Positions 32,139-56,091 of a DNA stretch of 64,000 nt are shown one piece after another. The position numbers and the translations under genes were made by a program. Below the pieces are notes generated by a model. The model did not search any database, was not told the DNA's origin, and saw only the letters and a list, made by a program, of their open reading frames with translations. The stretch's first letter is position 1. The number at the start of each line of letters is the position of its first letter. This DNA comes from Thiotrichales bacterium (GTDB lineage: Bacteria > Pseudomonadota > Gammaproteobacteria > HK1), in NCBI GenBank assembly GCA_026709935.1, contig JAPOSC010000055.1, forward strand, positions 1 to 64,000, written 5' to 3'.

Positions 32139-32209
32139 GGAGGCGGCGACCGTCTTCAGTCAGTGCTGTCCGCGCGCGCGTGTCGGTCCGGGGTCCGGAT
32201 GCCGGCGCA

Positions 32210-32965
32210 TCAGGCCAGCCGTTGCAGGGAGTCCCGGACTGTCGGCCGCATCCCGGATTCGACGTCCGCCCGGCGGCGTTCGTGGAACGTCGCGAGCGTG
32301 CGGTTGGCGTTCGAGAAGGTTTCGATCTGCTCGCAGTACCGATCGAGCCGGCGCCCCGGCAGCGCCCACAGAGCGGTGTCGTCGCCGAGCGCGTCCAAGT
32401 AGGCCCTCGCGCCGCAGCAGCCGAGGCTCATCGCCGCGAGCCCCTGGTTGAACGCCTGGGGGAGGGCGGCGCAGGCGGGGCGGCCCATTGCGGGCGGGAC
32501 GCCGCCGTCGACCCGCGCCAGCGCCTCGCTCAGCACGAGCCCCCGACGGGCGTCGGCGAACAGCAGCACCACGTCGGGTTCCACCGGGAAGTCACCAAGC
32601 GGCCCGTAGACGGCGTGACTCACCGCCTGCCCCACCACCGGGATCGTCGCGACTTCATCCTCGCGCACGTAGTCGAGCCCGGTCATGGCTTCCAGCGCGG
32701 CCTGGAGCTCTTCGGGCTGCGACGCGGGCGCGCGGGAAAGGTTCATGGTGTGAATGCCGATCGAGCAGAGCGCGTGATGCCCGGCGGACGTGGTAAACGT
32801 GCGCTTGGCGGCCTCCTGCCAGAACACGCATCCGGCCGGCACCATGCCTTCGAACTCGGGAACTCCGTCCGGCACGGTCTCGGTGAAAGCCACTGCCACG
32901 GGCGGCAGGGACAGCTCCAGAGCGGCGGCGAGCTTCTCCGCCTGTTGTTGTCGTTCGGGGGTCAT
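32210..32965 (-). CDS. DUF169 family protein
   Basis: 251 aa from ATG 32965 (AAGGAG six bases upstream). Conserved DUF169 pattern: LELSLPPVAVAFTE near the N-terminus, then several invariant-looking cysteines: CVFWQEA, CSIGIHTMN, RPACAAL and LGCCGARAYL. The function of the family is not established; the cysteines suggest metal or cofactor binding. Upstream of the TRAP genes on the same strand, so it may belong to that operon. The 29-residue upstream extension has no homology and was dropped. Confidence 0.85.
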   Translation of the reverse strand: MTPERQQQAEKLAAALELSLPPVAVAFTETVPDGVPEFEGMVPAGCVFWQEAAKRTFTTSAGHHALCSIGIHTMNLSRAPASQPEELQAALEAMTGLDYVREDEVATIPVVGQAVSHAVYGPLGDFPVEPDVVLLFADARRGLVLSEALARVDGGVPPAMGRPACAALPQAFNQGLAAMSLGCCGARAYLDALGDDTALWALPGRRLDRYCEQIETFSNANRTLATFHERRRADVESGMRPTVRDSLQRLA

Positions 32966-38455: not shown

Positions 38456-40219
38456 ATGCAGATGACTTCTCAGGAGGCGTTCGTCGAGACGCTGCGGGTG
38501 AACAACGTCAAGGTCGCGTTCGGGATCGTCGGTTCGGCCTTCATGCCGGGGCTCGACATTTTCGAGCGCGCGGGTATCCGGTTCGTCGATGTCGCGCACG
38601 AGCAGGGCGCCGCCCACATGGCGGATGGGTACACGCGTGCGAACGGCGAGGTCGCGGTGTGCATCGCGCAGAACGGGCCGGGGATCACCAACTTCGTTAC
38701 CGCGGTGGCGGCCGCGTACTGGAACCACACCCCGATGATCGTGGTGACGCCCGAGACCGGAGCGAAGACCCAGGGTCTCGGCGGGTTCCAGGAGACCCGC
38801 CAGCTTCCGTACTTCGAGGAGATCACCTGTCACCAGGAGACCCTTGCGCACCCGCACCGCATGGTGGAGGCGCTGAGCCGGTGCTTCCAGCGCGCGCGCC
38901 AGCACTCGGCGCCGGTGCAGTTCAACATCCCCCGCGACTATTTCTGCCAGATCATCGACGTCGAGATCCCCGAGCCCATCCGGCCCGGACGCCAGCCCGG
39001 CGACGTGGACACCGTCAATGCCGCCGCCGCGTTGCTGAGGGCGGCGAAGAGTCCGTTCATCGTGGCCGGGGCCGGGGTGGTCCTGAGCGACGCGGTCGAC
39101 GAATGCCGGCAGCTCGCCGAGCGCCTGGGCGCTCCCGTCGCGAACAGCTACCTCCACAACGACAGCTTCCCCGCGAGCCACCCCCTCGCGGTCGGGCCGC
39201 TCGGCTACCAAGGGTGGGAGTCGGCGATGGTGCTCGTGAAGGAGGCGGACGTCATCCTCGCTCTCGGCACCCGGCTCAACCCCTTCAGCACCCTGCCGCA
39301 GCACGGCATCGAGTACTGGACCGGACAGGCGAAGATCATCCAGGTCGATTCCAATCCCGATATGCTGGGCCTCGCCAAGCCGATCGACGTCGGGATCTGC
39401 GGCGACGCCCGCGCCGTCGCGCGCCAGCTTCTGGAGGCGCTGGACGGGCATACCCCGGGCGCCGAAGCGGACGATCGCAGGAACCGGATCGCCACCGCGA
39501 AGTCCGCGTGGCTCCAGAAGCTCGCGGGCTGGGACCACGAGGAGGACGATCCGGGCAGCACCTGGAACGCCCGGGCGCAGGAAGCCGCCCCGGGACGGAT
39601 GGCGCCCCGCCAGGTGCTGCGGGCCATCCAGGACGGCCTGCCGCCGGACGCGATGGTCTCCACCGACATCGGCAACATCTGCGCGATGGCGAACAGCTAC
39701 CTGCCCTTCGAACAGCCGCGGAGCTTCTTCGCCCCGGGGATGTTCGGCAACTGCGGCTACGCCTTCCCCTCGATCATGGGGGCGAAGCTCGCGCAGCCGG
39801 AGCGTCCCGCGGTGGCGCTGGTCGGCGACGGCGCGTTCGGCATCAGCCTGAACGAGCTGCCGACCTGCGACCGGATGAGCATCCCGGTGACGGTGGTGGT
39901 GTTCCGCAACGAGCAGTGGGGGGCGGAGAAGAAGAACGACATCCTGTGGTTCGACGAGCGCTTCGTCGGCACCGAGCTCGGCGACCCCTTCAGCTACGCG
40001 AAGGTAGCCGAGGCGTTCGGTCTGAAGGGGGTGCGGGTCGACACCATGGCGGACCTGACCGACGCCATCCGCGAGTCCTGCGCTGCGCAGACCCACGGCA
40101 CCACGACCCTCGTCGAGGTGGTGGTCAACAAGGAACTCGGCGCCCCGTTCCGCCGCGACGCGATGCAGGATCAGGCGTGCCTGCTGCCACGGTACAAGGA
40201 CCTCACGGTCTCGCGCTGA
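38456..40219 (+). CDS. xsc: sulfoacetaldehyde acetyltransferase Xsc (ThDP enzyme)
   Basis: 587 aa. Converts sulfoacetaldehyde plus phosphate to acetyl phosphate and sulfite, the key C-S cleavage step for taurine, isethionate and related C2 sulfonates. The sequence follows the Xsc pattern throughout: EEAFVETLR-like opening (SQEAFVETLRVNNVKVAFGI), AYWNHTPMIVVTPE, GGFQETRQ, NIPRDYF, HNDSFPASHPL, GTRLNPFSTLPQHGIEYW, DHEEDDPGSTWNARA, GDGAFGIS and NELGAPFRR-like end (NKELGAPFRRDAM). ThDP-binding GDG...FRN is intact. A Met two codons on is an alternative start. No pta or taurine dehydrogenase/aminotransferase gene is adjacent. Convergent with the msm operon. Confidence 0.92.
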   Translation: MQMTSQEAFVETLRVNNVKVAFGIVGSAFMPGLDIFERAGIRFVDVAHEQGAAHMADGYTRANGEVAVCIAQNGPGITNFVTAVAAAYWNHTPMIVVTPETGAKTQGLGGFQETRQLPYFEEITCHQETLAHPHRMVEALSRCFQRARQHSAPVQFNIPRDYFCQIIDVEIPEPIRPGRQPGDVDTVNAAAALLRAAKSPFIVAGAGVVLSDAVDECRQLAERLGAPVANSYLHNDSFPASHPLAVGPLGYQGWESAMVLVKEADVILALGTRLNPFSTLPQHGIEYWTGQAKIIQVDSNPDMLGLAKPIDVGICGDARAVARQLLEALDGHTPGAEADDRRNRIATAKSAWLQKLAGWDHEEDDPGSTWNARAQEAAPGRMAPRQVLRAIQDGLPPDAMVSTDIGNICAMANSYLPFEQPRSFFAPGMFGNCGYAFPSIMGAKLAQPERPAVALVGDGAFGISLNELPTCDRMSIPVTVVVFRNEQWGAEKKNDILWFDERFVGTELGDPFSYAKVAEAFGLKGVRVDTMADLTDAIRESCAAQTHGTTTLVEVVVNKELGAPFRRDAMQDQACLLPRYKDLTVSR

Positions 40220-40287: not shown

Positions 40288-41328
40288 TCAGGTGAACTTG
40301 TCGTACCGGATATCCGAGGCCGGGAGGCGGGCTTCCGCGATCAACATGCGCAACGCGCCGTCCACCATCGGGGGTGGGCCGGCCACGAACGCAGTGCGAT
40401 TGCCCCACGCTCCGGCCATGCGTTCGCCGGCCACGAGGTGTACGAAGCCATGGGCGGCCCGGATGCCCCCGGGGACATCCGGGTCGCGGACCGTGGACGA
40501 CTCCTCGGAGTAGGCGACGGTCACCGAGAGCCCACCTCCCGCGGCGTCGACAAGCCGGGCGAGTTCGTCGGCGAAGAACACGTCTTCCCGGGTCCGGACC
40601 CCGAAGAACACGTCGCCCCGGTGTCGCTCGAAGTGTCCGCTCGACAGGGCATGAGACACGATGGACATCATTCCCGCGATGCCCGAGCCGCCGGCGATGC
40701 ATACGAGATCCTTCTCCTCCTCCGGTCGCCAGGTCGCCCTGCCCAAAGGCCCGAAGACATCGAGCGTGGTGCCTGCCCGATCGACCCCGAGCCATTCCGA
40801 GAAGCCTCCGCCCGGTGTGCGCTTGACGACGAAATCCAGGCGAGAGGTTTCCGCCGCTCCGTTGACCATGGAATACGCGCGATATCCGTTGAGCCCGGGG
40901 ACCGCGAGTACCACGAACTGTCCGGAATCGAACGTGACAGGACGGTCGAGATCGATGCTGAACGTATCGACATCGCGGGTCAGGGGGCGGATCTCCGACA
41001 GATCACCGGTCAAGTATTGTGGTTCCCGCGCCGTGTCGGATACCCCATCGATCCGGGATGGGACGAGAACCTCGCAGTCGCCGAGCGCGACGCCCTGACA
41101 CATCAGGAACTCGCCTCGTTCGCGTTTCAGATGGGCATGTCCGGGCGCCTGCGGCCAGACGTCCTCGACGGTGCCGGGGCGAGCGCGCGCCTTGCAGGTG
41201 CCGCACGATCCGGTCGCGCATTCATGAGGGACACGGACTCCCGCGCGCAATGCTGCGTACAGAATCCGTTCGCGCGGAGCGCACTCGATCTCGTGAATCG
41301 ACGTCCTGGTGCGGATCGTGACCTTCAA
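40288..41328 (-). CDS. msmD: methanesulfonate monooxygenase reductase MsmD
   Basis: 346 aa oxidoreductase passing electrons from NAD(P)H to the ferredoxin. An N-terminal plant-type [2Fe-2S] domain has Cys37, Cys42, Cys45 and Cys77 (ECATGSCGTCKA ... LMCQG), an FAD domain with GYRAYSMVN, and an NAD domain with VCIAGGSGIAGMMSI and a C-terminal FVAGPPPMVDGAL. Start is TTG at 41328 after AAGGG; no ATG or GTG lies between it and the first beta strand. Last gene in the msmA-B-C-D order on this strand. Confidence 0.87.
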   Translation of the reverse strand: MKVTIRTRTSIHEIECAPRERILYAALRAGVRVPHECATGSCGTCKARARPGTVEDVWPQAPGHAHLKRERGEFLMCQGVALGDCEVLVPSRIDGVSDTAREPQYLTGDLSEIRPLTRDVDTFSIDLDRPVTFDSGQFVVLAVPGLNGYRAYSMVNGAAETSRLDFVVKRTPGGGFSEWLGVDRAGTTLDVFGPLGRATWRPEEEKDLVCIAGGSGIAGMMSIVSHALSSGHFERHRGDVFFGVRTREDVFFADELARLVDAAGGGLSVTVAYSEESSTVRDPDVPGGIRAAHGFVHLVAGERMAGAWGNRTAFVAGPPPMVDGALRMLIAEARLPASDIRYDKFT

Positions 41329-41364: not shown

Positions 41365-41733
41365 CTACCACTCGAAGTCGTCATCCTCGTCGTCTTCGTG
41401 TTCGTAAACGAGTTCGCCGTCGATGCGGGCGAGAAGTTCGCCGCCTTCCACCCTCGATTCGTAGCGCAGCAGCTCGCGGTCGTTCTCTTCCGGGCCAGTC
41501 GGCTCACCGGTGCGCATGTTCCACTGATGCAGATGCTTGCTGCAGGTCAGGATGAGTCCGGCACATATTCCGGACTGGTCGAGCGGCTCCTCCATGTGAG
41601 GGCAGGAGGGAGGGAATACACTGAAGCCGTCGTCGCCGAGGTTGGCCACGATGACGGTGATCCCGTCCACGACGAAAGGGGCGAGTCGACCCGGCTCGAT
41701 GTCGCCCGCTGAACAGACACGCTTCCAGGTCAT
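41365..41733 (-). CDS. msmC: Rieske ferredoxin MsmC
   Basis: 122 aa. Rieske ligands Cys44-x-His46 and Cys64-x2-His67 with 17 residues between, the normal ferredoxin spacing (SCPHMEEP ... TCSKHLHQW). Very acidic C-terminus (HEDDEDDDFEW). ATG 41733 is chosen because the fold starts at once; the 45-residue upstream frame extension is unlike a ferredoxin. Electron carrier between MsmD and the MsmA/B hydroxylase. Confidence 0.87.
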   Translation of the reverse strand: MTWKRVCSAGDIEPGRLAPFVVDGITVIVANLGDDGFSVFPPSCPHMEEPLDQSGICAGLILTCSKHLHQWNMRTGEPTGPEENDRELLRYESRVEGGELLARIDGELVYEHEDDEDDDFEW

Positions 41734-41886: not shown

Positions 41887-42372
41887 TCATATCGGCCAGT
41901 GCGATCCCTTGTCGAGGCGTCGCGTGTCGAGCTGCACGATGCGTTCCACGAACTTCGCGTCCCCGTTCTCGAGTCTGAACCGGTCGTGGTACTTGCCGAC
42001 GAGGAAGAGGTTCGATGATCCCGCCTCGACATGGGAGGCCATACCGTCGAGGACGGTCCGGTAGACGGCGACCGACGAGACTGCCGACGCGGACGCGTCG
42101 GACTCGTCGACAGCGACCCGGTAGACGACCGTGTGCCGCGCGAGCGGTGAACGGTCCGTGTTGTGCTTGGGCAGCAGGTCGCACATCGAGACCATCTCTG
42201 CCCGGTTACCGTCGAGATAGGTCATGTCGTATCGGATTTCGGGGCTGAACGCCTTGATGGCGTAATAGAACCCGTCGTCGCACAGCGCGAGCCAATCCCC
42301 CCACCGGCACTCGTCGAGGGCCAGGCTCGCTTCGTAGATGGTCGAGCGGATGGTGTCGTGCGTGGCGATCAT
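41887..42372 (-). CDS. msmB: methanesulfonate monooxygenase hydroxylase small subunit MsmB
   Basis: 161 aa, NTF2-like fold of ring-hydroxylating oxygenase beta subunits. A typical opening (STIYEASLALDECRWGDWLALC), the segment YDMTYLDGNRAEMVSMCDL and the late strand SSNLFLVGKYHDRFRLENGD match the pattern. It lies 13 bases after msmA. Structural subunit supporting the alpha subunit; no catalytic residues are expected. Confidence 0.88.
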   Translation of the reverse strand: MIATHDTIRSTIYEASLALDECRWGDWLALCDDGFYYAIKAFSPEIRYDMTYLDGNRAEMVSMCDLLPKHNTDRSPLARHTVVYRVAVDESDASASAVSSVAVYRTVLDGMASHVEAGSSNLFLVGKYHDRFRLENGDAKFVERIVQLDTRRLDKGSHWPI

Positions 42373-42385
42373 CGATGCAGGTCTC

Positions 42386-43624
42386 TCAGGCGGCGGCCGC
42401 GTACGGTTTCTCCGGATCGGACGGTCTGCGGTTCATCCACCGGCCCCACTCATCGTAGAAGTGACGCATGCCGATTTCGTCGTGGATGGTGTTGTTCTCG
42501 TGGCGGCCGTGCAGGATGCGTCGCGGCTCGGCGTGCTCGTTCATTGCAGCCTGCTGGGTGGTCACCGCGAGCAGATCCTCGTGCAGGTTGCGGCCGAACG
42601 GACCCCAGATGCTGTTGTGGTGCCGGACCCGGGACATCCGCTCCTCGGGCGTGTCGCTCTTCAACCCCAGCCCCCGGAATTCGATGAGCACGCGGTCCGG
42701 GGCCAGCGGAGTCATGATGTCGCAACGCAACGCCGACCCCCGAAGGTTGAAATTGACCCCGGGGAACATGTCAATCATGTACCAGTGATTCGGCGGCAGG
42801 CCGGGGAAGGAGAGCGATTCGCGCGACTCGAAGCCCTCGTATTTGTCGTACTGCACCTCGAACGAACCCACGGTGACGTGGCCATTCTCGAACCCGGTGT
42901 TCTGTCGCGCGAAGTAAGCGTCGTTGAAGCCGGTGATGCGGTTATGGTAGTGCAGATAGTCGTGGTAAAACTCCGAGTTGGTGTCGTGCCACAGCTTGTA
43001 ATTGGCGTGGATGATCGCCTTGTGGTAATGGAAGACTTCGAGTGGCTCGGCATCCACGTGTTTCTGCAGGCAGTCGAAGCAGCCGGCGCCCCATTCCTCG
43101 ACCGTCTTGCCGATCGCGTCGTCGAGGGTGACCCACACGAAACCGCCGAAGTGGACCTCGCACCGCAGGCGTCGCAGCCCGAGGTCGTTGCGCGAGAGCC
43201 GGTTCTGATAGCCCTCCTTCTCGCGCGAAATGTGCGTGCAGTTGCCCTTCATGTCGAACTGCCAGCCGTGGTACATGCAGGTCATGTGTCTCGGAGCACC
43301 GGATGCAGTACCGTTCCGGAAGCTGCCCGAAGGGCGGTTCTCGATGGTGTTGCCCCGGTGCGGACACACGTTGAGGAACGCACGGACCTGGTTGTCCGAT
43401 CCGCGGGCCACAATGATCGGCTCCCTGGCGATGGTGGTGGTGCGGAAGTCGTAGGGCTCCGGAATCTCCGACTCGTGGCACGCCACGATCCAGCTCTTCT
43501 TCCAGATTTTTGCGAGTTCTTCCTCGAAGATTGCCCGGTCGGAGTAGATCCGGCTGTCGATGTACTCGCCTTCCCGGAGTTCGCCGGGCACCTCGTTCCA
43601 ACGTTTGTGATTTCTGGCTGGCAT
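42386..43624 (-). CDS. msmA: methanesulfonate monooxygenase hydroxylase large subunit MsmA
   Basis: 412 aa Rieske non-haem iron oxygenase from ATG 43624 (GAGGA upstream). The Rieske ligands are Cys87-x-His89 and Cys116-x2-His119 with 26 residues between them. This CxH-X26-CxxH spacing is the known mark of MsmA; most ring-hydroxylating oxygenases have 15-17. The mononuclear iron region is NSEFYHDYLHYHNR (His221, His225/227). The enzyme hydroxylates methanesulfonate, which breaks down to formaldehyde and sulfite. Gene order msmABCD is complete. A 54-codon upstream frame extension was discarded. Confidence 0.92.
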   Translation of the reverse strand: MPARNHKRWNEVPGELREGEYIDSRIYSDRAIFEEELAKIWKKSWIVACHESEIPEPYDFRTTTIAREPIIVARGSDNQVRAFLNVCPHRGNTIENRPSGSFRNGTASGAPRHMTCMYHGWQFDMKGNCTHISREKEGYQNRLSRNDLGLRRLRCEVHFGGFVWVTLDDAIGKTVEEWGAGCFDCLQKHVDAEPLEVFHYHKAIIHANYKLWHDTNSEFYHDYLHYHNRITGFNDAYFARQNTGFENGHVTVGSFEVQYDKYEGFESRESLSFPGLPPNHWYMIDMFPGVNFNLRGSALRCDIMTPLAPDRVLIEFRGLGLKSDTPEERMSRVRHHNSIWGPFGRNLHEDLLAVTTQQAAMNEHAEPRRILHGRHENNTIHDEIGMRHFYDEWGRWMNRRPSDPEKPYAAAA

Positions 43625-43878: not shown

Positions 43879-44793
43879 TTACTTCGATCCTTCGCGGCGC
43901 CGCCTCTCGATCTCCTCGAGTTTCGAATCCCAGTTCATCGCTCTGGCGAACGTCTCGAGTTCGGCCTCGTCCATGAACACCGAGTGCTCCCGGCCCGGAT
44001 AGACGTTCCTCTTGACATCGTCGCGATAGCGGGTAAACACGTCTTCAATGATCGGGATGAAGTCGGTGTAGATCTTTGAATGACGCGGCGTGTGCTCCGG
44101 GTAGAGATGCATGAGGTCGGAGGTAATGATGTGCACGCCGTGCCCGCCCTGACCGCCGCCGAGGCTGATGACCGGGACCGGGAGGGTTTGAGCGAGATAC
44201 TCGGTCACCTCCTGGGTGGTGACCTCCGTCATGATGGAGAAGCACCCCGCCTCGACGAACGCTATCGCGTCGTCCACGAGCTCCCGGGCCCGATCCGCGG
44301 TCTTGCCCTGGGCGAAGAATCCACCGAGTTGGGCGATGCGCATGGGAGTGATGCCGATGTGTCCCTGTACCGGGACTCCCGCCCTGACGATCGCCTCGAT
44401 GTTCTTCGCGTGGTGCCGATTGCCCTCGCACTTCATCACTTCGGCATTCGCCTCGTGAACGAAGCGCCCCGCGTTCTCCACCGCTTGCTCGGCTGACGTG
44501 TGGAAGCTCCAGTACGGCATATCGACCATGCGCAGCCCGTACTGCGAGCCGCGATCAATGGCCTTGGCCATCATCATCACCTCGTCGAAGGTCACGGTGA
44601 CGGTGCTCTGGTGTCCGAACAGGATCATGCCGCCGGTATCCGACACGCACAGGATGTCGATCCCGAGCTCGTCGGCGATGACGGCGCTGCGGTAGTCGTA
44701 GATAGCCATCTGCACGATCTGCTCGCCTTGGCGCATCTTGCGCATCAGGGTGCGTAGCGTGAGCTTGCGCCGCCTCTTCGGTGTCTCTGCCAT
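43879..44793 (-). CDS. panB: PanB family (ketopantoate hydroxymethyltransferase-like) protein in the msm locus
   Basis: 304 aa from ATG 44793. Fold residues of PanB are kept: metal ligands Asp52 (CVSDTGG), Asp91 (RMVDMPY) and Glu123 (MKCEGN), Lys121, His145 (GHIGITP), and Glu190 in the catalytic position (IMTEVTT). PanB transfers a C1 unit from methylene-tetrahydrofolate to 2-oxoisovalerate. The C-terminal acceptor-pocket region is unlike housekeeping PanB (LGGGQGGHGVHI; YPEHTPRHSKIY), no panC is adjacent, and it sits between the formaldehyde-producing msm operon and its importer. A changed acceptor specificity or a role in C1 handling is inference. Confidence 0.85.
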   Translation of the reverse strand: MAETPKRRRKLTLRTLMRKMRQGEQIVQMAIYDYRSAVIADELGIDILCVSDTGGMILFGHQSTVTVTFDEVMMMAKAIDRGSQYGLRMVDMPYWSFHTSAEQAVENAGRFVHEANAEVMKCEGNRHHAKNIEAIVRAGVPVQGHIGITPMRIAQLGGFFAQGKTADRARELVDDAIAFVEAGCFSIMTEVTTQEVTEYLAQTLPVPVISLGGGQGGHGVHIITSDLMHLYPEHTPRHSKIYTDFIPIIEDVFTRYRDDVKRNVYPGREHSVFMDEAELETFARAMNWDSKLEEIERRRREGSK

Positions 44794-45117
44794 CGACTGG
44801 AGTCTCCCTTGTCCTTTTTTCGTCGCACGGTTCGCTGGGCGCCGACTGCAATTCGTATCCGATGGTAGGGTGCACGCCGTGGCAGTGTCCAAGAGATTTC
44901 GATTATCGAGTGATAGGCACAACCCGGTACGGAACGATGCGCAAGTTTTGTGGATCGATAGCCGGAACCAATCAATCCATTGATCGGAGAGAATTTACAA
45001 ATCAACGGAATTCGGCTCCGATCAAAAGCCGCGAGAATCCGTGATGATGCGGTTCCCTGCGAAGAGGAGGGTGTATCTGCAAATCAGCACCAGACGATAT
45101 TTCTCGGAGTTGGTGCG

Positions 45118-45185: not shown

Positions 45186-46322
45186 ATGTCTGATCGAACA
45201 AGCGTGAAGCAGCGCGCGGCAGCGGTAGCAGTGGGGGCCGTGCTTGCAGCGACGATGGTGACGCAGAGCGCGTCCGCCCGCGTCGACTTCGGCCAGGAAG
45301 GCGAGGCGGTGAATCTGGTCATCGGCTACCAGCCGTACTACACCGAATCCTGGTCCGGGGTCGTGAACAACGGAAAGGGTTTCTGGAAGCACTACCTGCC
45401 CGACGGTTCGACCGCCACCTTCGAAATCGGCCTGCAGGGGTCGGTGATCGTGAACGCGATGACCGGAGAAAAGCAGCACATTGGATACATGGGTGACATG
45501 CCGGCGATCGCGTCCACGTTCCGCAACATCAAGGAACGCGGTGGCACGGACATCCGGATCGTCTCGGTGCTCGGCACATCGAAGCAGCAGTGCAATATCT
45601 TCCTCGTGCGCAACGATGCGCCGGAGTTCGCCAACGGCAGAGAGGCGGTCGAGTGGATGGACGGTAAAATCACCTCCGCGCCGCATGGTGCGTGCACTGA
45701 CCGCTTCGCGCGTCTCGCCTTCCAGAAGGCTGGTATCGAGCCGAAGCGTTACCTCAACCAGAATATCGAGGTCATCACCACGAACTTCCGGGCCGGCAAG
45801 CTCGACGCGGCCGCGATCTGGGAGCCGACCGCGTCGAAAATCGTCCTCGGCGGCATCGCCAGGCGCGCGGCCAGCGGCGAAGACTTCGATGCCCTCGACG
45901 GTGGATTCATGGTGATGCTGAACGATCTTATCGAGCAGCGTCCGGACGTCCATCGCGGCTGGCTGGAGGCAGAGCTCGATGCCCAGCTCTTCATGCTCGA
46001 TCCGGCGAATGCGGACGAGGTCGCCTCGATGGCGGAGGCGCAGACCGAGCAGATCGACAAGGATGTGCTCAAGCATTCACTGTTCGGCGGATGGCCGGCG
46101 GAGCAGGGCGGCGGCGAGGTGAAGGTTCAGCTCGACTTCGTCGTCACCGAACGAGTGCAGGGCCTCCTCGACGACGCGACGGCGTTCCTGCACAGCCTGC
46201 CCAAGAAGCCCGCTGCCGCCGCGACGATTCGCGAGGGCGGGGTGATGGATGGCGTGGCGCGCGATGTTCTTGATGCGCGCGGCCTGTCGAGCCCGCTCGG
46301 GGTGATCAAGGCCCAGATGTAG
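45186..46322 (+). CDS. sulfonate/nitrate-type ABC substrate-binding protein (MsmE-like)
   Basis: 378 aa. A signal peptide (VKQRAAAVAVGAVLAATMVT ... SASA) is followed by an NMT1/SsuA-like fold: VNLVIGYQPYYTESWSG, QGSVIVNAMTGEKQHIGYMGDMPAI, NFRAGKLDAAAIWEPTASKIV. RBS AAGGGAGAG. It leads a five-gene importer directly divergent from the msm/panB operon, so methanesulfonate or another alkanesulfonate is the likely ligand. The following 170-bp gap contains a small hairpin. Confidence 0.88.
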   Translation: MSDRTSVKQRAAAVAVGAVLAATMVTQSASARVDFGQEGEAVNLVIGYQPYYTESWSGVVNNGKGFWKHYLPDGSTATFEIGLQGSVIVNAMTGEKQHIGYMGDMPAIASTFRNIKERGGTDIRIVSVLGTSKQQCNIFLVRNDAPEFANGREAVEWMDGKITSAPHGACTDRFARLAFQKAGIEPKRYLNQNIEVITTNFRAGKLDAAAIWEPTASKIVLGGIARRAASGEDFDALDGGFMVMLNDLIEQRPDVHRGWLEAELDAQLFMLDPANADEVASMAEAQTEQIDKDVLKHSLFGGWPAEQGGGEVKVQLDFVVTERVQGLLDDATAFLHSLPKKPAAAATIREGGVMDGVARDVLDARGLSSPLGVIKAQM

Positions 46323-46492: not shown

Positions 46493-47380
46493 ATGACCGG
46501 CAGTCCCGTCGAGAGCGTTTCCGGCCGGAGATCCGAACCGCCGCGCGGGATGGCGCTGTTCGCATATCGCGCCGGCCGCATGGTGCGGACCACCGGCCCG
46601 TACCTGACGGTGCTGGGCATCGGGGCATGGCTGCTGCTGTGGTGGCTGTTCAGCGAGGTCTGGTACCTGCCCCGCTTCGAGAAGATGCCGGGTCCGGTGG
46701 CGGTGCTGTCGGACCTCTTCGCCCGCGACCCGTTCCAGGGAATCTCGATCTTCACCGACGAGTACTACGAGCACATCTGGGTGAGCTGCCGGCGGATTCT
46801 CTTCGCCTTCTGCATCGCAACCGGGGTCGGAGTGCCGCTCGGGCTGTGCATGGGGTGGTCGGTGCAGTTTCGCCACTACACTTTTCCTATCCTGGAGACC
46901 CTGCGTCCCATTCCGATCCTGGCCTGGGTGCCGCTGTCCATCCTGATGTTCAGGGGATTCGAGGCGCCGGTCATCTTCCTCGCGACCCTCGCGTCACTGT
47001 TCGTGACCACGCTGAACACGATGCTCGGCGTCCAGTCCATCGACGAATCGTACTTCCGGGCCGCCGGCTGCCTCGGGTCCAACCGGTGGCAGATCTTCCG
47101 CCATGTCGTGGTACCCGGTGCGCTGCCGTTCATCTTCACCGGCTTGCAGATCAGCATCGGGGTCGCGTGGTTCTCCCTGGTCGCGGCGGAGATGGTGTCG
47201 GGGGACTGGGGGCTCGGCTACCTCATCGTCGACGCCTACATGAACAACGTGACGGTGCCGATGGTCATCGGCATGATCACCCTCGGTTTTGTCGGCTGGG
47301 GCACGTCGGTCCTGGTGCGCATCGCGGGCAACCGGATGATGCAGTGGCGCACCCGGGCGCTCGCGCTGGAGGGACGCTGA
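46493..47380 (+). CDS. sulfonate-type ABC permease (SsuC/TauC family), first
   Basis: 295 aa. Helices at GPYLTVLGIGAWLLLWWLF and following; family motif FPILETLRPIPILAWVPLSI and the docking loop YFRAAGCLGSNRWQIFRHVVVP. SsuC/TauC permeases normally act as homodimers, but a second, different permease gene is present in this operon. Its stop shares a base with the next ATG (TGATG). Confidence 0.92.
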   Translation: MTGSPVESVSGRRSEPPRGMALFAYRAGRMVRTTGPYLTVLGIGAWLLLWWLFSEVWYLPRFEKMPGPVAVLSDLFARDPFQGISIFTDEYYEHIWVSCRRILFAFCIATGVGVPLGLCMGWSVQFRHYTFPILETLRPIPILAWVPLSILMFRGFEAPVIFLATLASLFVTTLNTMLGVQSIDESYFRAAGCLGSNRWQIFRHVVVPGALPFIFTGLQISIGVAWFSLVAAEMVSGDWGLGYLIVDAYMNNVTVPMVIGMITLGFVGWGTSVLVRIAGNRMMQWRTRALALEGR

Positions 47381-48231
47381 TGTCCACCGCCGAGATGTCC
47401 ACCACCGCCCGTACCGGTGCGATCAGCATTCGCAACGTCACCAAGATCTACGACCCGGAGGGAGTCAACGTCCTCGCCGTGGACGATTGCTCGCTCGAGA
47501 TCGGGGCCGGCGAGGTCTGCATGATCGTGGGGCCGTCGGGGTGCGGGAAGACGACGCTGCTGAACGCCATCGCGGGCTTCCACTCCCTCACTTTCGGCGA
47601 GATCCGGCTCGACGGCGAGGTGCTGTGCGACGAACGGCGGCCGCTCGCGAGCCAGGGCGCGGACCGGGTAGTGGTGTTCCAGAACGGCGCACTCTTCCCT
47701 TGGAAGACGCTGGGCGACAACGTGGCCTACGGGCCGATGGTTCAGGGGACATTGTCGAAGGCCGAGGCGCGCGAGAAGGCGCGGCACATGCTCGCCGAGG
47801 CGGGGCTCGGTGATGTCGCCGAGAAGTACCCGGGCGAGGTGTCCTCGGGCATGGCGCGCCGGGCCGAGATTGTCCGCGCTCTCATCAACGATCCCAAGGT
47901 GCTGCTGCTCGACGAGCCCTACCGCGCGATGGACGCGCTTACCAAGTCCATCATGCACGAGGCACTGCTCGAGATGTACGACCGTACCAAGGTCACGATC
48001 TTCTTCATTACCCACGATCTGGAGGAGGCGATCTTTCTCGGAGATCGGGCGGTGGTGATGACCACCCGACCGTGTCGGGTCAAGACCATCGTGAACGTCG
48101 ACATTCCCCGCCCCCGCGACTATCACCTGCTCTCTTCGGAGGAGTTCCGGGTGCTGGTCGAGGAGGCGAAGGATGCGGTGCACGAGGAAGCGCTGAAGGC
48201 GTTCGAGGCCGGCGAGCGCGAGCTCGCCTGA
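47380..48231 (+). CDS. sulfonate-type ABC ATPase with degenerate signature motif (first of a pair)
   Basis: 283 aa. Walker A GPSGCGKT (51-58), Q101, Walker B LLLDEP with Glu179, and switch His212 (FITHDLEEA) are intact. The signature motif is VSSGM (154-158) in place of the family LSGGM, followed by ARRAEIVRAL. In a heterodimer with the second ATPase its own site would be completed by a normal signature, while its altered signature faces the partner's defective site. Same operon as both permeases. Confidence 0.9.
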   Translation: MSTAEMSTTARTGAISIRNVTKIYDPEGVNVLAVDDCSLEIGAGEVCMIVGPSGCGKTTLLNAIAGFHSLTFGEIRLDGEVLCDERRPLASQGADRVVVFQNGALFPWKTLGDNVAYGPMVQGTLSKAEAREKARHMLAEAGLGDVAEKYPGEVSSGMARRAEIVRALINDPKVLLLDEPYRAMDALTKSIMHEALLEMYDRTKVTIFFITHDLEEAIFLGDRAVVMTTRPCRVKTIVNVDIPRPRDYHLLSSEEFRVLVEEAKDAVHEEALKAFEAGERELA

Positions 48232-48271: not shown

Positions 48272-49129
48272 ATGACGGCAGTGTCGGACATGGTGCAAGG
48301 CGCGGGAGTGGTAAGAAAGCGGACCCGCCTTCAGCGCCTGAAGGACAACCGCAAGCTTTGGCGCGGCATCGCCGCCGTCGTAATCGCGCTCGTCTTCTGG
48401 GAGGTCGGCTCGCGCTGGGATCAGTGGTTCGGGTTCACGCTGCCGTTCATCGGCCTCATTCCTCCGCCGACCGACGTGGCGGTGGCCTGGATGTCGGTGC
48501 TGCCGCAGCCCGGTTACTGGGAGAGCTGGTACCTGAGCTTCAAGCGCGTGCTGGCCGGCTTCCTCGTCGCCCAGCTCGTCGGCATCCCGCTCGGACTTGC
48601 GCTCGCGGTCAACCGGTACTTCCGCGAATTCTTCTTCCCCGTGTTCGAGATCCTGCGCCCGATCCCGCCGCTCGCGTGGGTGCCCGCGTCGCTCATCTTC
48701 TGGCCGACCAACGAGATGTCGATCGCGTTCGTCACTTTCCTCGGGGCCTTCTTTACCATCGTCATCAACGTGCTCGGCGGGGCGCGCACCATCGACATCT
48801 CGCTATTGCGCGCGGCGCAGTCGATGGGTGCGACCCAGTGGGACATGTTCTGGAAGATCGTGCTTCCGGGTACGCTGCCTTCCATCTTCACCGGCGCCGC
48901 CGTCGGCATGGGGATCACCTGGGAGGTGGTGCTCGCGGCAGAGATGATTTCGGGCGGGGGGACCCAGGGTGGTGGCGGCCTCGGCTTCTTCATCTGGAAC
49001 TCCTACATGGGCGGCTCGCTGCCGCACATCGTGGTGGGCATGATCAGTATCGGGATCGCAGGCTACGTCTCCAGCAGCGCCATCCGGTGGCTCGGGGACT
49101 GGGCGATGCCGTGGCGGCGGCTCTTCTGA
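48272..49129 (+). CDS. sulfonate-type ABC permease (SsuC/TauC family), second
   Basis: 285 aa, different from the first permease. Motifs FPVFEILRPIPPLAWVPASL and the docking loop LLRAAQSMGATQWDMFWKIVLP are typical. A Gly-rich periplasmic loop (ISGGGTQGGGGLG) replaces the usual short turn. Together with the first permease it would make a heterodimeric channel, matching the two ATPases. Confidence 0.92.
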   Translation: MTAVSDMVQGAGVVRKRTRLQRLKDNRKLWRGIAAVVIALVFWEVGSRWDQWFGFTLPFIGLIPPPTDVAVAWMSVLPQPGYWESWYLSFKRVLAGFLVAQLVGIPLGLALAVNRYFREFFFPVFEILRPIPPLAWVPASLIFWPTNEMSIAFVTFLGAFFTIVINVLGGARTIDISLLRAAQSMGATQWDMFWKIVLPGTLPSIFTGAAVGMGITWEVVLAAEMISGGGTQGGGGLGFFIWNSYMGGSLPHIVVGMISIGIAGYVSSSAIRWLGDWAMPWRRLF

Positions 49130-49300: not shown

Positions 49301-50161
49301 ATGAGCGAAATCAACGGCGCTTCCGGACGGGCTTCCGGGGCCATTGTCATGGACGGCGTGCGCAAGGGCTACGGCGAGGACTGGAGCTGGCAGCAGGTCA
49401 TCGAGTCGGTGAGCCTCGATCTGCCGCCGGGACAGTTCACCGCGGTGGTCGGTCCGTCCGGGTGTGGCAAGACCACGCTGGTCAACCTGCTGGCGGGCTT
49501 CGAGCGCGCTGACGAGGGAAGCATCGCCGTCGACGGGCGCATCGTCTCCGGCACGAGCCGGGACCGCATGGTGGTGTTCCAGGAGTCGGCGCTGATGCCC
49601 TGGCTGACGACGTACCAGAACGTCGCGTTCGGGCCGAAGCTGCGCGGCGACATGCGCGGCGCGGCGCTCGACCGCGAGATCGACAGGCTGCTCAACAAGG
49701 TCGGCCTCGCGGAGTTCAAGGACAAGTTCCCGTTGCAGCTCTCCGGCGGTATGCAGCGCCGGGCGGAGCTTGCGCGGGCCATGATCAACAGCCCGTCCAT
49801 CATGATCATGGACGAGCCGTTTCGCGGCCTCGACGCGATGACCCGCGAGCTGATGCAGGAGTTTCTCCTCCGGCTCTTCGAGGAGACCGGGCGTACCCAC
49901 TTCTTCGTCACCTCCGAGATCGAGGAAGCCATCTTCCTCGCGGATCGGCTCGTGGTGCTCTCCAACCGGCCGGTGACCGTGCGCACGGTCATCGACATCG
50001 AGCTCCCGAGGCCGCGCGAGTTCCACCTGCTGAGCACTCCGGAGGCCTACGACTACAAGCGCGAGGCCCTGGAAATCCTCCATGAAGAGGCGATGAAGAG
50101 CTTCGGGGGCGGCGGCTCGGTGCAGAACGAACTCGTGGAGGCGATTGCCCGCCGCGGTTGA
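49301..50161 (+). CDS. sulfonate-type ABC ATPase lacking the switch histidine (second of a pair)
   Basis: 286 aa from ATG 49301; the frame extends 56 codons upstream without homology. Walker A GPSGCGKT (51-58), Q94, signature LSGGM (147-151) and Walker B IMIMDEP with Glu172 are canonical. The switch histidine is Ser205 (FFVTSEIEEA), so this subunit's own site should be impaired, and it pairs with the degenerate signature of the first ATPase. Result: one complete and one doubly defective composite site. Confidence 0.9.
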   Translation: MSEINGASGRASGAIVMDGVRKGYGEDWSWQQVIESVSLDLPPGQFTAVVGPSGCGKTTLVNLLAGFERADEGSIAVDGRIVSGTSRDRMVVFQESALMPWLTTYQNVAFGPKLRGDMRGAALDREIDRLLNKVGLAEFKDKFPLQLSGGMQRRAELARAMINSPSIMIMDEPFRGLDAMTRELMQEFLLRLFEETGRTHFFVTSEIEEAIFLADRLVVLSNRPVTVRTVIDIELPRPREFHLLSTPEAYDYKREALEILHEEAMKSFGGGGSVQNELVEAIARRG

Positions 50162-50736: not shown

Positions 50737-51471
50737 ATGATCGAAGCACTCGGACTCACCATGCGCTTCGGCCACCGCACGGTGGTCGAGGGGCTGTCGT
50801 TTCGCGTCGAGCGCGGCGAGCTGTGCGCGTTTCTCGGACGCAACGGTGCCGGCAAGACCACCACCATGCGGATGCTCGCAGGAGTGCTCCGTCCGTCCGG
50901 CGGCACCGCCCGCGTCGACGGCCGCGACGTGATCGCCGAACGCCGCGCGGCCGCCGCCGCGATCGGATTCCTGCCCGAGGCGGCGACCGGATTCTCGCGC
51001 CTCACCGTCGGCGAATTCCTCCGGTTCTGTGGCGAGTCGCGGGGCCTCGCCGGGTCGGCGCTCGCCGCGGCGATCGACCGTGCCACCGGGCTCGTGCACG
51101 CCCGCGAGGCATGCGGCGCGCTGATGGGCGAGCTTTCGAAGGGCTGGCGGCAGCGGGCATGGCTGGCACAGGCGCTCCTGCCCGACCCTCCGGTGCTGAT
51201 CCTCGACGAGCCCACCGACGGCCTCGATCCGGTGGAACGCGCGCGCATTCGCGCACTGCTTCGACAGGTTGCGGAGAACAAGGCGATCCTGTTGTCAACC
51301 CACGTGCTGGAGGAGGCAGAGGAGGTCGCGACCCGCGTGCTCCTCGTCGAGCGGGGACGCATCGTTGCCGACGCCGTGCCGGCCGATCTCGTCGACGAGC
51401 GCGGCCGGCTCGGCCCCGCGTTTCACCGCCTCGCCGGTCACGACCCGGAATTCCCGCTTGGCCGGCCCTGA
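50737..51471 (+). CDS. ABC transporter ATPase (GldA/NatA-like)
   Basis: 244 aa. Walker A GRNGAGKT (34-41), the GldA-like signature LSKGWRQRAWLAQAL, Walker B VLILDEPTDGLDPVERARIR and switch STHVLEEAEEVA. This is the soluble ATPase of an ABC-2 type exporter/GldAFG-like complex. The downstream gene encodes the membrane part fused to a GldG-like domain, overlapping or following within 25 bp. Confidence 0.9.
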   Translation: MIEALGLTMRFGHRTVVEGLSFRVERGELCAFLGRNGAGKTTTMRMLAGVLRPSGGTARVDGRDVIAERRAAAAAIGFLPEAATGFSRLTVGEFLRFCGESRGLAGSALAAAIDRATGLVHAREACGALMGELSKGWRQRAWLAQALLPDPPVLILDEPTDGLDPVERARIRALLRQVAENKAILLSTHVLEEAEEVATRVLLVERGRIVADAVPADLVDERGRLGPAFHRLAGHDPEFPLGRP

Positions 51472-51493
51472 CCCGGGGCGCCCGCCCGGATTC

Positions 51494-54022
51494 GTGCGTG
51501 CCGCCGCCGCGGTGACGCGCCACGAGGTGCGGCTCGCGTTCCATTCTCCGATGAGCTGGGTGCTCGCGCTCGGATGCGTGCTGAGCGTCGGCATCGCGGT
51601 TTTCGTGGTCGGCGAGTTCCTCTCCACCAACGAGGCGTCGGTGCGGCTCTTCTCGCTGTTCCTGCCCTGGGCGGCGATCGTGTTCGTCCCGGCGCTGGCA
51701 ATGCGCGCCTGGTCGGGCGGACACGACGACCGCGGTCTCGATTTCGCGATGTCCCTGCCGGTCGGAGACGCGGCGCTGGTGGCGGGGAAGTTTCTGGCCG
51801 GCCTCGCGGTGCTCGCTCTCGTACTGCTGCTAGCCACCGTATTTCCCGCCACCGTCTTCTACCTGGGGGAGCCGGACATCGGCGCCACCGCCGGAGCCTG
51901 GCTCGCCGCGTTCGCCCTGCTGGCGGCTTTCCACGCCGTGGCCCTCGCCGCCGCCGCGATGACCGAAGACGCCACCGCCGCGTTCGTGGCGGGGGCCTGC
52001 GCGCTGTTCGCGCTGGTCATGGCCGGTACCGACGGTGTTGCGCACCGCCTCGATGACTGGTTGCCCGCCAGGGGCGTGGAGGTGGTGACCTCGCTCGGAC
52101 CCCGCCGCTGGACGGAAGAGCTTGCGAGCGGCCGGCTCGGCGTGGGGGCGCTCGCGTACTTCGGGTTGTTTCCGATCCTTGCTCTCGCCCTCACCCGCGC
52201 TCTTGTCGCCCTGCGCAGGACGGCGGCGCCGGGCTCCGCCGTAGTGCTGCGCGGGGCGGCCGGGTTCGTCGCGCTCGCGGTCTGCGTCGGTGCGGCTACC
52301 GGTCTCGCCGAGCGCTGGGGCGGATTCGTCGACATCAGCGAGGAGCGCGAGCACACGCCGGCGCCGGGCACGCGCTCCATCCTCCAGGCGCTGCCGGGTG
52401 AAGTCGCCGCAGCGCTTTACTGGAGCGTGGAGCAGGAAGGCATTCCCACCGCGATTCGCACCCACGCGCGCCGCGCCCGGGCGATGCTCGACGCCTTCGC
52501 GCGTTCGAGTGACGGAAACCTCGCGGTGCGCCATCGTGATCCGCGCCCCGATTCCGAAACCGAGATCGACGCCTTGGGCGCCGGCATGCGCAGGGTCCCG
52601 ATGACGAGCGGCGACGCCTTCTTCCTCGGGGTGGAGCTTCGCCACGAAGACCGTACCCTGGCCGTGCCGTACCTCGACGTCGACCGTGCCGAACTCCTGG
52701 AGTACGACCTCGCGTCCGCCATCGGCGTCCTCGTGCGCGAGCGCACCCCGCGCGTCGCGGTGCTCAGCCCGCTCGTCGCCCCGAGCGCGATTCGCACCGG
52801 GCGCGAGGGACTGACCCTGCTCGCCGAGCTGCGCGCGAGCAGCGATCTCGCGGTGGTGCCGTACTTCGCCGACGCACTGCCGGACGGCCTCGACGTGCTC
52901 TTGGTCATCGACGCCACGGTGCTCAAGCGCTCCATGCTGAGCTCGATCGATCGCTTCGTCGCCGGCGGCGGTACGCTCATCGTGCTCGTCGATCCGTTCG
53001 CCCGGTTCAACCGCGCGAGCCAGGGCACGTTCCCGGCGCCGTCCGATGAGCTCGACGACATCACCGATCTCCTCGCGGCGTTCGGATTCCGTTTCGACGC
53101 CGGGGAGGTAGTGGGCGACGAATCGTTCGCGGCCCCGGTATCCATGGATGGAGCGAGTGCGAGTGGCTATCCGTTCTGGATACGCGTCCCGGAGTCCGGG
53201 CTCGCGATGTCGCATCCCGTGACCGGTGCGTTGCGGGAGCTGCTGTTCGCGGAGCCGGGCTCGCTGGAGGTGGACGCTGTCTCCGGCATCGTGCCGCTTG
53301 TGTTCACCAGTGCGCGCAGCGGGGTGCTCGCGCGCGAGCGTTTCGTGGATGCGGCTCCCGCGGCGCTCGCATCGGAATTTGTCGCCGGCGGTGGCTCGCG
53401 CGTGCTCGCAGCCTACGCATCCGGTCCGTTCCCGAGCGCGCTCACCGGCATCGAGGGAGAGGCCGGCGCACGGGTGTTCGTGGTCGCGGATGTGGACTGG
53501 ATCTTCGATCCGTTCTCCGTGGAGGTCGCGGATGCGGCGGGCGGGACCCTGGCCCGTCCCATCAACGACAACCGGGCGTTCCTCCTGAACATGGTCGAGT
53601 TCGGCGGCGTCGCGGCCCCGCTCGCCGGGATTCGCACCCGCGGTCGTCTCCGGCGTCCGTTCACCCGCTTCGAGCAGCTCTTCCGGGAGGGCGAGGCGGA
53701 CACCCGGGAAGAGCTGGCAGAGCTCACCCGCCGGATCGCGCAGGGTGAGCGCCATATCGAAGAGCTCACCGCCGCCTCGGGTGCCGCCACGCCGGCGCAG
53801 TTTCGGGGCGAGGTCGCGGAGATGGTGACCGGAATTCGGCGGGGGCTTCTGCCGCTGCGCCATCGCGAGCGCGAGATACGGGCGCGGGTCCGTGCCCGGG
53901 TGGAAGCCTTGCAGGCACGGGTGATTGCCGCCAACTTCTTCACGCCCGTAGCGCTCGCCGCGCTCCTCGCGGGAATCGTCCGGTGGCGTCGGCGCCGGCA
54001 CGGCGGCGGGCCGGATGCATGA
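51494..54022 (+). CDS. ABC-2 permease fused to GldG-like ABC_transp_aux domain (GldF-GldG fusion)
   Basis: 842 aa from GTG 51494 (a TTG at 51458 overlapping the ATPase stop is the alternative). Residues about 1-240 are a six-helix ABC-2 permease like GldF (VTRHEVRLAFHSPMSWVLAL; LPWAAIVFVPALAMRAWSGG). A second part begins with a membrane helix and periplasmic sequence like GldG: VAVLSPLVAPSAIRTGREGL, LDVLLVIDATVLKRSMLSSI, FVAGGGTLIVLVDPFARFNR. A predicted coiled coil and a last helix (FFTPVALAALLAGIVRW) close the protein. In Bacteroidetes GldF and GldG are separate; here they are one chain. Substrate unknown. Confidence 0.85.
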   Translation: MRAAAAVTRHEVRLAFHSPMSWVLALGCVLSVGIAVFVVGEFLSTNEASVRLFSLFLPWAAIVFVPALAMRAWSGGHDDRGLDFAMSLPVGDAALVAGKFLAGLAVLALVLLLATVFPATVFYLGEPDIGATAGAWLAAFALLAAFHAVALAAAAMTEDATAAFVAGACALFALVMAGTDGVAHRLDDWLPARGVEVVTSLGPRRWTEELASGRLGVGALAYFGLFPILALALTRALVALRRTAAPGSAVVLRGAAGFVALAVCVGAATGLAERWGGFVDISEEREHTPAPGTRSILQALPGEVAAALYWSVEQEGIPTAIRTHARRARAMLDAFARSSDGNLAVRHRDPRPDSETEIDALGAGMRRVPMTSGDAFFLGVELRHEDRTLAVPYLDVDRAELLEYDLASAIGVLVRERTPRVAVLSPLVAPSAIRTGREGLTLLAELRASSDLAVVPYFADALPDGLDVLLVIDATVLKRSMLSSIDRFVAGGGTLIVLVDPFARFNRASQGTFPAPSDELDDITDLLAAFGFRFDAGEVVGDESFAAPVSMDGASASGYPFWIRVPESGLAMSHPVTGALRELLFAEPGSLEVDAVSGIVPLVFTSARSGVLARERFVDAAPAALASEFVAGGGSRVLAAYASGPFPSALTGIEGEAGARVFVVADVDWIFDPFSVEVADAAGGTLARPINDNRAFLLNMVEFGGVAAPLAGIRTRGRLRRPFTRFEQLFREGEADTREELAELTRRIAQGERHIEELTAASGAATPAQFRGEVAEMVTGIRRGLLPLRHREREIRARVRARVEALQARVIAANFFTPVALAALLAGIVRWRRRRHGGGPDA

Positions 54023-54130: not shown

Positions 54131-55048
54131 CTAATGCTCGCGCTCCGGATAGACGGGGCCGCACCGGTGCGCGTCCTCCATCAGGTCGACGACCGCCTTG
54201 GTCATCGGCAGCATCGGATCGCCCTTCAGCCAGACGAGGCCGACCGGCTGGGAGACGGTCGGCTCTTCGAGCAGCAACAGCCGCGTCCGGGCCATCCCGC
54301 CGATGCTCTCGATGAAGTAGCGAGGGACGATGGTGGCGCTCTCTCCCTGCACTGCGTGCACGGCGAGGGCAATCATCGCGTTGGATTCCAGCCGCGGTCG
54401 CGGCGTGCATCCGGCGCTCGCAAACGCCTTGTCGGTAATCTGACGCTCGTGGGTCTGGGGAGAGAGCAGGCAGAGCGGCAGCTTCGCGGCTTCCGCCCAG
54501 GTCACCGTCTTGCGCCCGCGGAACCAGTCGTTGTCTGGAATCAGCAGGTGGAAGGGCTCTTCGTAGAGCGGGAGGGAGTCGAGCTGATCATCGGAGGCGA
54601 GCTGCTCCAGGTATGTAATCGCGATGTCGAACTCGAAGTTGACAAGCCCGAGCCGCATCTCTTCGAGCCCGACGAACTGGATGTCGACCGAGGCGGCCGG
54701 ATGTTCCTGCGAGAACCGACGATCGATGAGCCCCGTGAGCGGCATGCTCATCGGCATCGCAGCGATGCGCAGGTGTCCGTGGAGCTGGTTGCGCATGATG
54801 CCGAGCTCCTGAACCATGGCTTGACGATCGGCGACGATGCGCTTCGACCACTCCAGAACCCGTCGGCCCTCTTCGGTGAATCCCTGAAACCGTCGATGAC
54901 GCAGGATGATAGGCACTCCGATCTCGTCTTCCAGATGCTTGATCGCGCTCGACAGCGTGGGTTGGGAGACATTGCAGCGGGTGGCGGCGCGGCCGAAATG
55001 CCCTTCCTGCTCAAGCGCGATCAGATACTGAAACTGCCTCAGAAACAT
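54131..55048 (-). CDS. LysR-family transcriptional regulator
   Basis: 305 aa. N-terminal winged HTH (FLRQFQYLIALEQEGHFGRA; VSQPTLSSAIKHLEDEIGVP), linker helix and LysR substrate domain (LRIAAMPMSMPLTGLIDRRF; PFHLLIPDNDWFRG). Divergent from the TauE/SafE exporter gene; the gap carries an ATAG-N7-CTAT element and a tandem repeat next to its own start. Probably controls the exporter, maybe also the sulfonate genes (inference). Confidence 0.93.
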   Translation of the reverse strand: MFLRQFQYLIALEQEGHFGRAATRCNVSQPTLSSAIKHLEDEIGVPIILRHRRFQGFTEEGRRVLEWSKRIVADRQAMVQELGIMRNQLHGHLRIAAMPMSMPLTGLIDRRFSQEHPAASVDIQFVGLEEMRLGLVNFEFDIAITYLEQLASDDQLDSLPLYEEPFHLLIPDNDWFRGRKTVTWAEAAKLPLCLLSPQTHERQITDKAFASAGCTPRPRLESNAMIALAVHAVQGESATIVPRYFIESIGGMARTRLLLLEEPTVSQPVGLVWLKGDPMLPMTKAVVDLMEDAHRCGPVYPEREH

Positions 55049-55317: not shown

Positions 55318-56091
55318 GTGGTGAGTGGAGGGATGTTCGCGGCGCTGCTCGGGATCGGGTTGCTGGTCGGCGTGCTCATTGGCGCCATCGGTGTCGGCGG
55401 CGTGCTCCTGGTTCCGGCCCTGACGTACATCGGCGGAATGGTGATCCACGTCGCTATCGCAAGCGCGATGGTCGCCTATTTCTTCGCAGGCTGCGTGGGC
55501 TCCGTCGAGTTCGCGCGTCGGGGCTCGATACGGTGGGGCGACGCCGCCTGGCTCGCAGGAGGTGCGATGCCCGGGGCGTTCGTGGGGGCGGCGGTCACGA
55601 ATGCGGCGCCCGGGTTCGCGCTGGAGCTGCTCATCGCGGTGCTCATCATTGCCTCGGCGTTGAATTCGTTGCGCGACAAGATCCCGGTGGACGGTACGCC
55701 GCGCACGCTCGCGAGGGGGCCGCTGCTCCTTGTCGGGGCCGTGACCGGCATCGCCTCGTCGATGAGCGGCACCGGCGGACCCCTCGTGCTCATTCCGATC
55801 CTGTTGTGGATGCATGTCCCGGTCCTTGCTGCGGTCGGGCTGAGCCAGGTGATCCAGCTTCCGATCTCCGCCTTCGCGACCGCGGGCAACCTCCTCTACG
55901 GTGCGATCGACATCGCAGTCGCGGCGGCACTCTCGGTGCTGCTGATGGTTGGGGTGTGGTTCGGCGCCCGCATCGCCCACCGCGTATCAAGCATCGCGTT
56001 GAAGCGGTTCGTATCGCTGACGCTGCTCGGGGTCGGGGGGATGATGCTCGTCAGGGTGGCCGGGTACGCGAGCGCCGGGGCGGGCGCATGA
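55318..56091 (+). CDS. TauE/SafE family exporter (probable sulfite/sulfoacetate exporter)
   Basis: 257 aa, seven to eight membrane helices in two repeats: LLVGVLIGAIGVGGVLLVPA opens the first, LVGAVTGIASSMSGTGGPLV the second, each with the family Gly-rich G-x-G-G motif. LRDKIPVDG is the central loop. Several GTG starts are possible (55318, 55321) and ATG 55333. TauE/SafE proteins export sulfite, sulfoacetate or related anions. Five kilobases from the msm/xsc locus, which generates sulfite. Confidence 0.88.
   Translation: MVSGGMFAALLGIGLLVGVLIGAIGVGGVLLVPALTYIGGMVIHVAIASAMVAYFFAGCVGSVEFARRGSIRWGDAAWLAGGAMPGAFVGAAVTNAAPGFALELLIAVLIIASALNSLRDKIPVDGTPRTLARGPLLLVGAVTGIASSMSGTGGPLVLIPILLWMHVPVLAAVGLSQVIQLPISAFATAGNLLYGAIDIAVAAALSVLLMVGVWFGARIAHRVSSIALKRFVSLTLLGVGGMMLVRVAGYASAGAGA

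Follow-up and report, generated by a model that had tools for sequence, protein, structure and literature searches.

The closest described systems are those of Methylosulfonomonas methylovora M2 and Filomicrobium Y/W (PMC4433239), and the locus described here shares with them the gene order msmABCD, a divergent msmEFGH operon, and an alpha subunit with 26 residues (X26) between the two halves of the Rieske motif. The Filomicrobium Y segment (PMC4433239) has in addition LysR, TauE, a PanB homologue, an extra ABC ATPase and an ABC pair in the region, as does the window. The differences are these: the host belongs to a gammaproteobacterial genus; xsc adjoins msmD; GcvT-like or SoxCD-type genes are not linked; and a PanB-like gene lies directly upstream of msmA, whereas in the Methylosulfonomonas/Filomicrobium system it is found beyond msmH. 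The sequence-only reading is largely borne out. The locus is a further example of a known methanesulfonate system, in an uncultured gammaproteobacterial genus, and is ordinary in kind; the value of the finding lies in a correction to the spacer rule for MsmA and in the PanB-like companion enzyme.

The window, that is, the whole stretch of 64,000 nucleotides that was analysed, comes from a draft genome of 3.78 Mb in 88 contigs, 95.9% complete. Its relevant genes are as follows; family counts refer to 82 clustered msm loci, the window's own among them.

38456..40219, plus strand: xsc, sulfoacetaldehyde acetyltransferase; adjacent to and convergent with msmD, counted as a neighbour outside the msm unit
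40288..41328, minus strand: msmD, reductase; plant-type 2Fe-2S, FAD and NAD domains; TTG start as listed
41365..41733, minus strand: msmC, Rieske ferredoxin; CxH-X17-CxxH
41887..42372, minus strand: msmB, hydroxylase beta subunit; SnoaL/Ring_hydroxyl_B-like, weak Pfam score
42386..43624, minus strand: msmA, hydroxylase alpha subunit; Rieske CxH-X26-CxxH and mononuclear iron domain
43879..44796, minus strand: PanB-like hydroxymethyltransferase of the msm-linked family; catalytic residues intact
45186..46322, plus strand: msmE, periplasmic sulfonate-binding protein; SsuA family
46493..47380, plus strand: msmF, ABC permease
47380..48231, plus strand: msmG, ABC ATPase
48272..49129, plus strand: msmH, ABC permease
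49301..50161, plus strand: second ABC ATPase, adjoining msmH; recurs in msm loci
50737..51471, plus strand: ABC ATPase of an ABC-2 type pair; family in 29 of 82 loci
51551..54022, plus strand: large ABC-2/ABC_transp_aux membrane protein, partner of the preceding ATPase; domain type recurs in msm loci
54131..55048, minus strand: LysR regulator; family in 45 of 82 loci
55333..56091, plus strand: TauE/SafE sulfite exporter; family in 38 of 82 loci

The msmABCD genes lie on the minus strand, and the linked transporter genes msmEFGH, with the second ATPase, diverge from them on the plus strand. The sequence-only reading had proposed a complete operon in the order msmABCD, and domain searches bear this out, with beta subunit, ferredoxin and reductase encoded in that order. 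The ferredoxin matches Pfam Rieske at 31 bits, and the reductase matches Fer2, FAD_binding_6 and NAD_binding_1. The beta subunit reaches 22.8 bits with Ring_hydroxyl_B, below the Pfam cut-off of 27; homologues of 44–70% identity lie near msmA in 75 of the 78 other loci (the 80 fetched msm loci, described below, minus two genus copies). The gene msmA is present in three of five genus genomes, 93–94% identical and at the same locus; in the two further genomes with this locus most genes are 90–97% identical, and msmB–D 65–91%. The ABC-2 pair at 50737-54022 recurs with msm; a large protein of the ABC_transp_aux type, as at 51551-54022, was seen in 21 msm loci.

The alpha subunit is 412 residues long from its ATG, with a MPARN start common to close relatives, and matches Rieske (PF00355, 64 bits) and Ring_hydroxyl_A (PF00848, 40 bits). 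No NCBIfam model came near its cut-off. A tree of 53 rows places the protein, with every sampled row of the fetched loci, in a 42-row MsmA clade with support of 100/99, in keeping with the MsmA assignment of the sequence-only reading, and the clade is retained (99/99) when the Rieske spacer is cut out of the sequences. The clade was identified through copies from related genera standing in for experimentally proven MsmA sequences; members include Filomicrobium insigne, Hansschlegelia beijingensis, Methylobacterium, Methylocella silvestris and a SAR116 genome, and for some of these genera growth on methanesulfonate or msm operons have been published (PMC4433239). Identity to the alphaproteobacterial copies is 64–74%, close to the 70–75% published between isolates and seawater clones, which further supports the assignment. 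Candidate iron ligands, picked out by motif, are His221, His225 and Asp350, invariant in 49 MsmA rows. An AlphaFold model has a mean pLDDT of 78, with residues 88-98 and 106-120 below 50, too low to read the shape of the 26-residue loop from it.

The Rieske spacer calls for a more careful account. The spacing itself is as first read: CPH at 87-89 and CMYH at 116-119 of MsmA, with 26 residues between, and CPH-X17-CSKH in the ferredoxin, both at the coordinates given above. In all 80 msmA loci fetched (the best 80 of 263 candidate stretches) the spacer is X26, save in L032, where an X is read at the last histidine position of the motif; on this comparison of sequences the 26-residue spacing in MsmA is judged not to be chance. 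In published work the long spacer counts as a signature, and X17 proteins annotated as MsmA are held to be unproven. The claim that X26 is ‘the mark’ of MsmA is not supported as it stands, on two counts. First, X26 occurs outside the MsmA clade, in Paraburkholderia graminis (L008, 50% identical) and in a protein of genome G078 (L134, 49%); two further G078 proteins at similar distance have X17 (L132, 52%; L135, 48%). Second, the X17 alpha subunit L132 sits among homologues of msmABCD and msmEFGH (locus L136), so X17 exists in a full msm-type locus. That locus is like the one in the window in gene content, with an alpha subunit 52% and transporter proteins 53–69% identical; it differs in its spacer of 17, in having no PanB-like gene in the stretch, and in an alpha subunit placed outside the MsmA clade. 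In the phylogeny the X26 rows do not form one clade: there are three spacer changes, interleaved with X17 relatives, and a single origin of X26 is rejected by the AU test whether the spacer is in the data (p 0.0035) or removed everywhere (0.0053). The group of L008, L132 and L135 is supported at 100/99 in both trees, spacer kept or removed; the exact order of the changes is unsure because of long branches. The data fit a spacer that is constant within the MsmA clade, not one confined to it, and spacer length alone is unsafe for calling msmA in metagenomes.

When species genomes were scanned with an alignment of five rows, 263 candidate stretches encoding a relative came up, of which the best 80 were fetched; these 80 are 64–94% identical to the window's MsmA in aligned rows (65–94% in their best segments) and are mostly labelled Alpha- or Gammaproteobacteria. 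In an even sample of the class, by contrast, a relative at E <= 1e-60 was present in only three of 368 other genomes; one of these (G236, 78% identical) is in the MsmA clade, and G078 and G130 hold more distant relatives. On these figures the earlier remark that methanesulfonate oxidation has been described in few organisms calls for a qualifier. A scan of viral sequences for MsmA relatives confirmed none; in a phage collection the sole close match was HMO-2011, at 51%. Besides L132, G078 holds two more MsmA-like proteins, one X26 and one X17. One msm contig (L019) is filed under Crocinitomicaceae (Bacteroidota) and nested among gammaproteobacterial sequences, by transfer or by a binning error.

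Methanesulfonate is one of the main compounds in which the oxidation of marine dimethyl sulfide ends, and with this locus an uncultured gammaproteobacterial genus joins the organisms likely to consume it. The window very probably holds a locus for methanesulfonate uptake and oxidation. What is observed directly is the content and order of the genes, their families and their conservation; substrate, reaction and direction of transport are carried over from characterised homologues. In the proposed pathway, MsmEFGH would import methanesulfonate; electrons would pass from NADH through MsmD and MsmC to the Rieske cluster of MsmA and on to the mononuclear iron; there MsmA/MsmB would hydroxylate the methyl group; hydroxymethanesulfonate, the immediate product by chemical inference, would break down to formaldehyde and sulfite; and TauE would export the sulfite. 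The PanB-like enzyme would probably take the one-carbon product by tetrahydrofolate-linked hydroxymethyl transfer, a speculative step suggested by gene context; for folate chemistry the genome has FolD.

A different view of the same genes supposes that the msm system serves sulfur supply only, not carbon and energy. Two accompaniments of msm in other loci would favour it: the sulfite dehydrogenase pair is not linked here, and the genome has no close homologue of the GcvT-like protein of msm loci (L020, L025 type), the best match being 34%. The sulfite-oxidase-type PF00174 protein L141 (G000:C58:21934-22443) is unlinked, and at about 31–39% identity to the msm-linked kind it was rejected as an msm-linked sulfite dehydrogenase. 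The GcvT and sulfite dehydrogenase results also count against the main reading, in that they leave the later steps of the pathway incompletely covered. Against a role in sulfur supply alone stand the TauE exporter, which suggests an excess of sulfite; the multicomponent Rieske enzyme, of a kind familiar from growth with methanesulfonate as the carbon source; and FolD, which is present in the genome. We regard this alternative as unlikely, though it survives better than the others considered here. As a separate observation, the molybdopterin protein L141 is found in the three msm-positive genus genomes and is absent from the two msm-negative ones.

The least ordinary part of the locus, absent from the claims of the sequence-only reading, is the PanB-like gene. 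It shares the strand of msmA, begins a gap of 254 bases upstream of that gene's start, and matches Pfam PanB at 260 bits. A counterpart of more than 60% identity lies within the fetched stretch in at least 42 of the 78 other msm loci, and directly upstream of msmA (<600 bases) in at least 29 of those 42; both are lower bounds, because many stretches end early. Where the stretch extends 9 kb or more to each side, the gene is present in 13 of 28 loci. It was not found near msmA in the Methylobacterium or Methylocella loci, and in Methylocella silvestris the sole PanB is of the other, non-msm kind. Within the genus, all three msm-positive genomes carry it at msm, two of them with an additional distant partial match to PF02548 (112 and 111 bits); in the two msm-negative genomes nothing matches PF02548.

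The predicted fold agrees best with PanB structures (1o68, TM 0.78 by query and 0.90 by target), and the protein is 24–30% identical to solved PanB structures. Equivalents of Asp45, Asp84, Lys112, Glu114, His136 and Glu181, which we take to be the catalytic set of E. coli PanB (3-methyl-2-oxobutanoate hydroxymethyltransferase), align in all 26 msm-type rows. These rows depart from PanB in a Thr at the Ser46 position and in invariant Arg36, Trp96 and Arg153 of their own. The msm-linked copies are split from canonical PanB by a branch at 100/100, and are 69–94% identical to the window's protein, as against 28–35% for other PanB; by these sequence comparisons the gene belongs to an msm-linked family of its own. 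Could it be an ordinary ketopantoate hydroxymethyltransferase for pantothenate, beside msm by chance? Fold and catalytic residues are those of PanB, and the TIGR00222 panB model is barely passed (208.0 against 207.55 bits); the NF001452 score, however, is under its cut-off, grouping with canonical PanB is contradicted by the separate clade, and several msm genomes hold both kinds of PanB. Moreover, panC (PF02569) gave no match in the five genus genomes, which are 94–97% complete, whereas the same search was positive in nine of 14 controls. A pantothenate role is disfavoured by the lack of panC in the genus and by the separate clade, and seems to us quite improbable.

From the gene context we infer instead a role in one-carbon transfer. 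In L020 and L025 a GcvT-like folate-binding protein is encoded between tauE and the PanB-like gene, which fits folate-linked transfer of a C1 unit. The protein may, more specifically, be an enzyme dedicated to methanesulfonate metabolism that transfers the oxygenase product's hydroxymethyl group to tetrahydrofolate or to a 2-oxo acid, the donor being hydroxymethanesulfonate, formaldehyde or methylene-tetrahydrofolate; we hold this tentatively, as a possibility falling a little short of an even chance. If true, the route from the monooxygenase to central one-carbon metabolism would include a step so far unrecognised, and the conserved enzyme offers one specific, testable question on the pathway. 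In the Filomicrobium paper the PanB homologue appears just as a table entry under ‘C1-moiety transfer’ (PMC4433239); beyond this, the literature searched yielded no paper linking a PanB-like gene with msm.

The gene xsc on the other flank raises the question of substrate. Its product scores 874 bits with TIGR03457 (cut-off 676), and xsc is convergent with msmD in both the window and genome G003; the oxygenase might then act on a C2 sulfonate, such as ethanesulfonate or another precursor of sulfoacetaldehyde, and feed the adjacent Xsc. The X26 relative L008, which lies outside the MsmA clade near genes for acetaldehyde dehydrogenase and hydroxy-oxovalerate aldolase, lends this some weight, as it suggests that the wider family may use longer sulfonates. 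The window's alpha subunit, however, is inside the MsmA clade, and Xsc of more than 50% identity is in reach in just one of the 78 other msm loci. The gene xsc is present in all five genus genomes, two of them without msmA, and is 87–92% conserved in the other four; in G002 it is 3.8 Mb from msm. The NfeD and slipin-like genes that flank it in the window also accompany it in G002 and G004. Since xsc is genus-wide and lies elsewhere in relatives, its adjacency is no evidence for a C2-sulfonate substrate, and such a substrate is very unlikely. Xsc was rejected as part of the msm pathway on genus synteny: we read the arrangement in the window and G003 as an msm block adjoining an older xsc neighbourhood, not as one pathway, and the presence of Xsc in all five genomes suggests a use of C2 sulfonates separate from msm.

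A reading of the alpha subunit as an aromatic-ring hydroxylating dioxygenase is barely credible: MsmA relatives carry that generic annotation and the best solved structures for the protein are aromatic dioxygenases, but these enzymes appear only as far matches and it does not group with them, which the sequence-only reading had named as a refuting outcome. The top NCBIfam aromatic model reaches 100 bits where its cut-off is 830, and the tree speaks against it, as do the sulfonate transporter and sulfite exporter.

Some smaller observations concern the surroundings of these genes. On the P. graminis plasmid, L008 (7030-15395) combines the X26 oxygenase and the aldehyde and aldolase genes with a TSUP transporter, and possibly specifies a longer-chain sulfonate monooxygenase. 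In G004 a segment about 12 kb from the full xsc (G004:C1:2276338-2276451) matches the end of Xsc at 68% over 39 residues. At 31632-32965 of the window, a DUF169 protein is encoded beside a small TRAP-like transporter subunit; both are also near xsc in G004.
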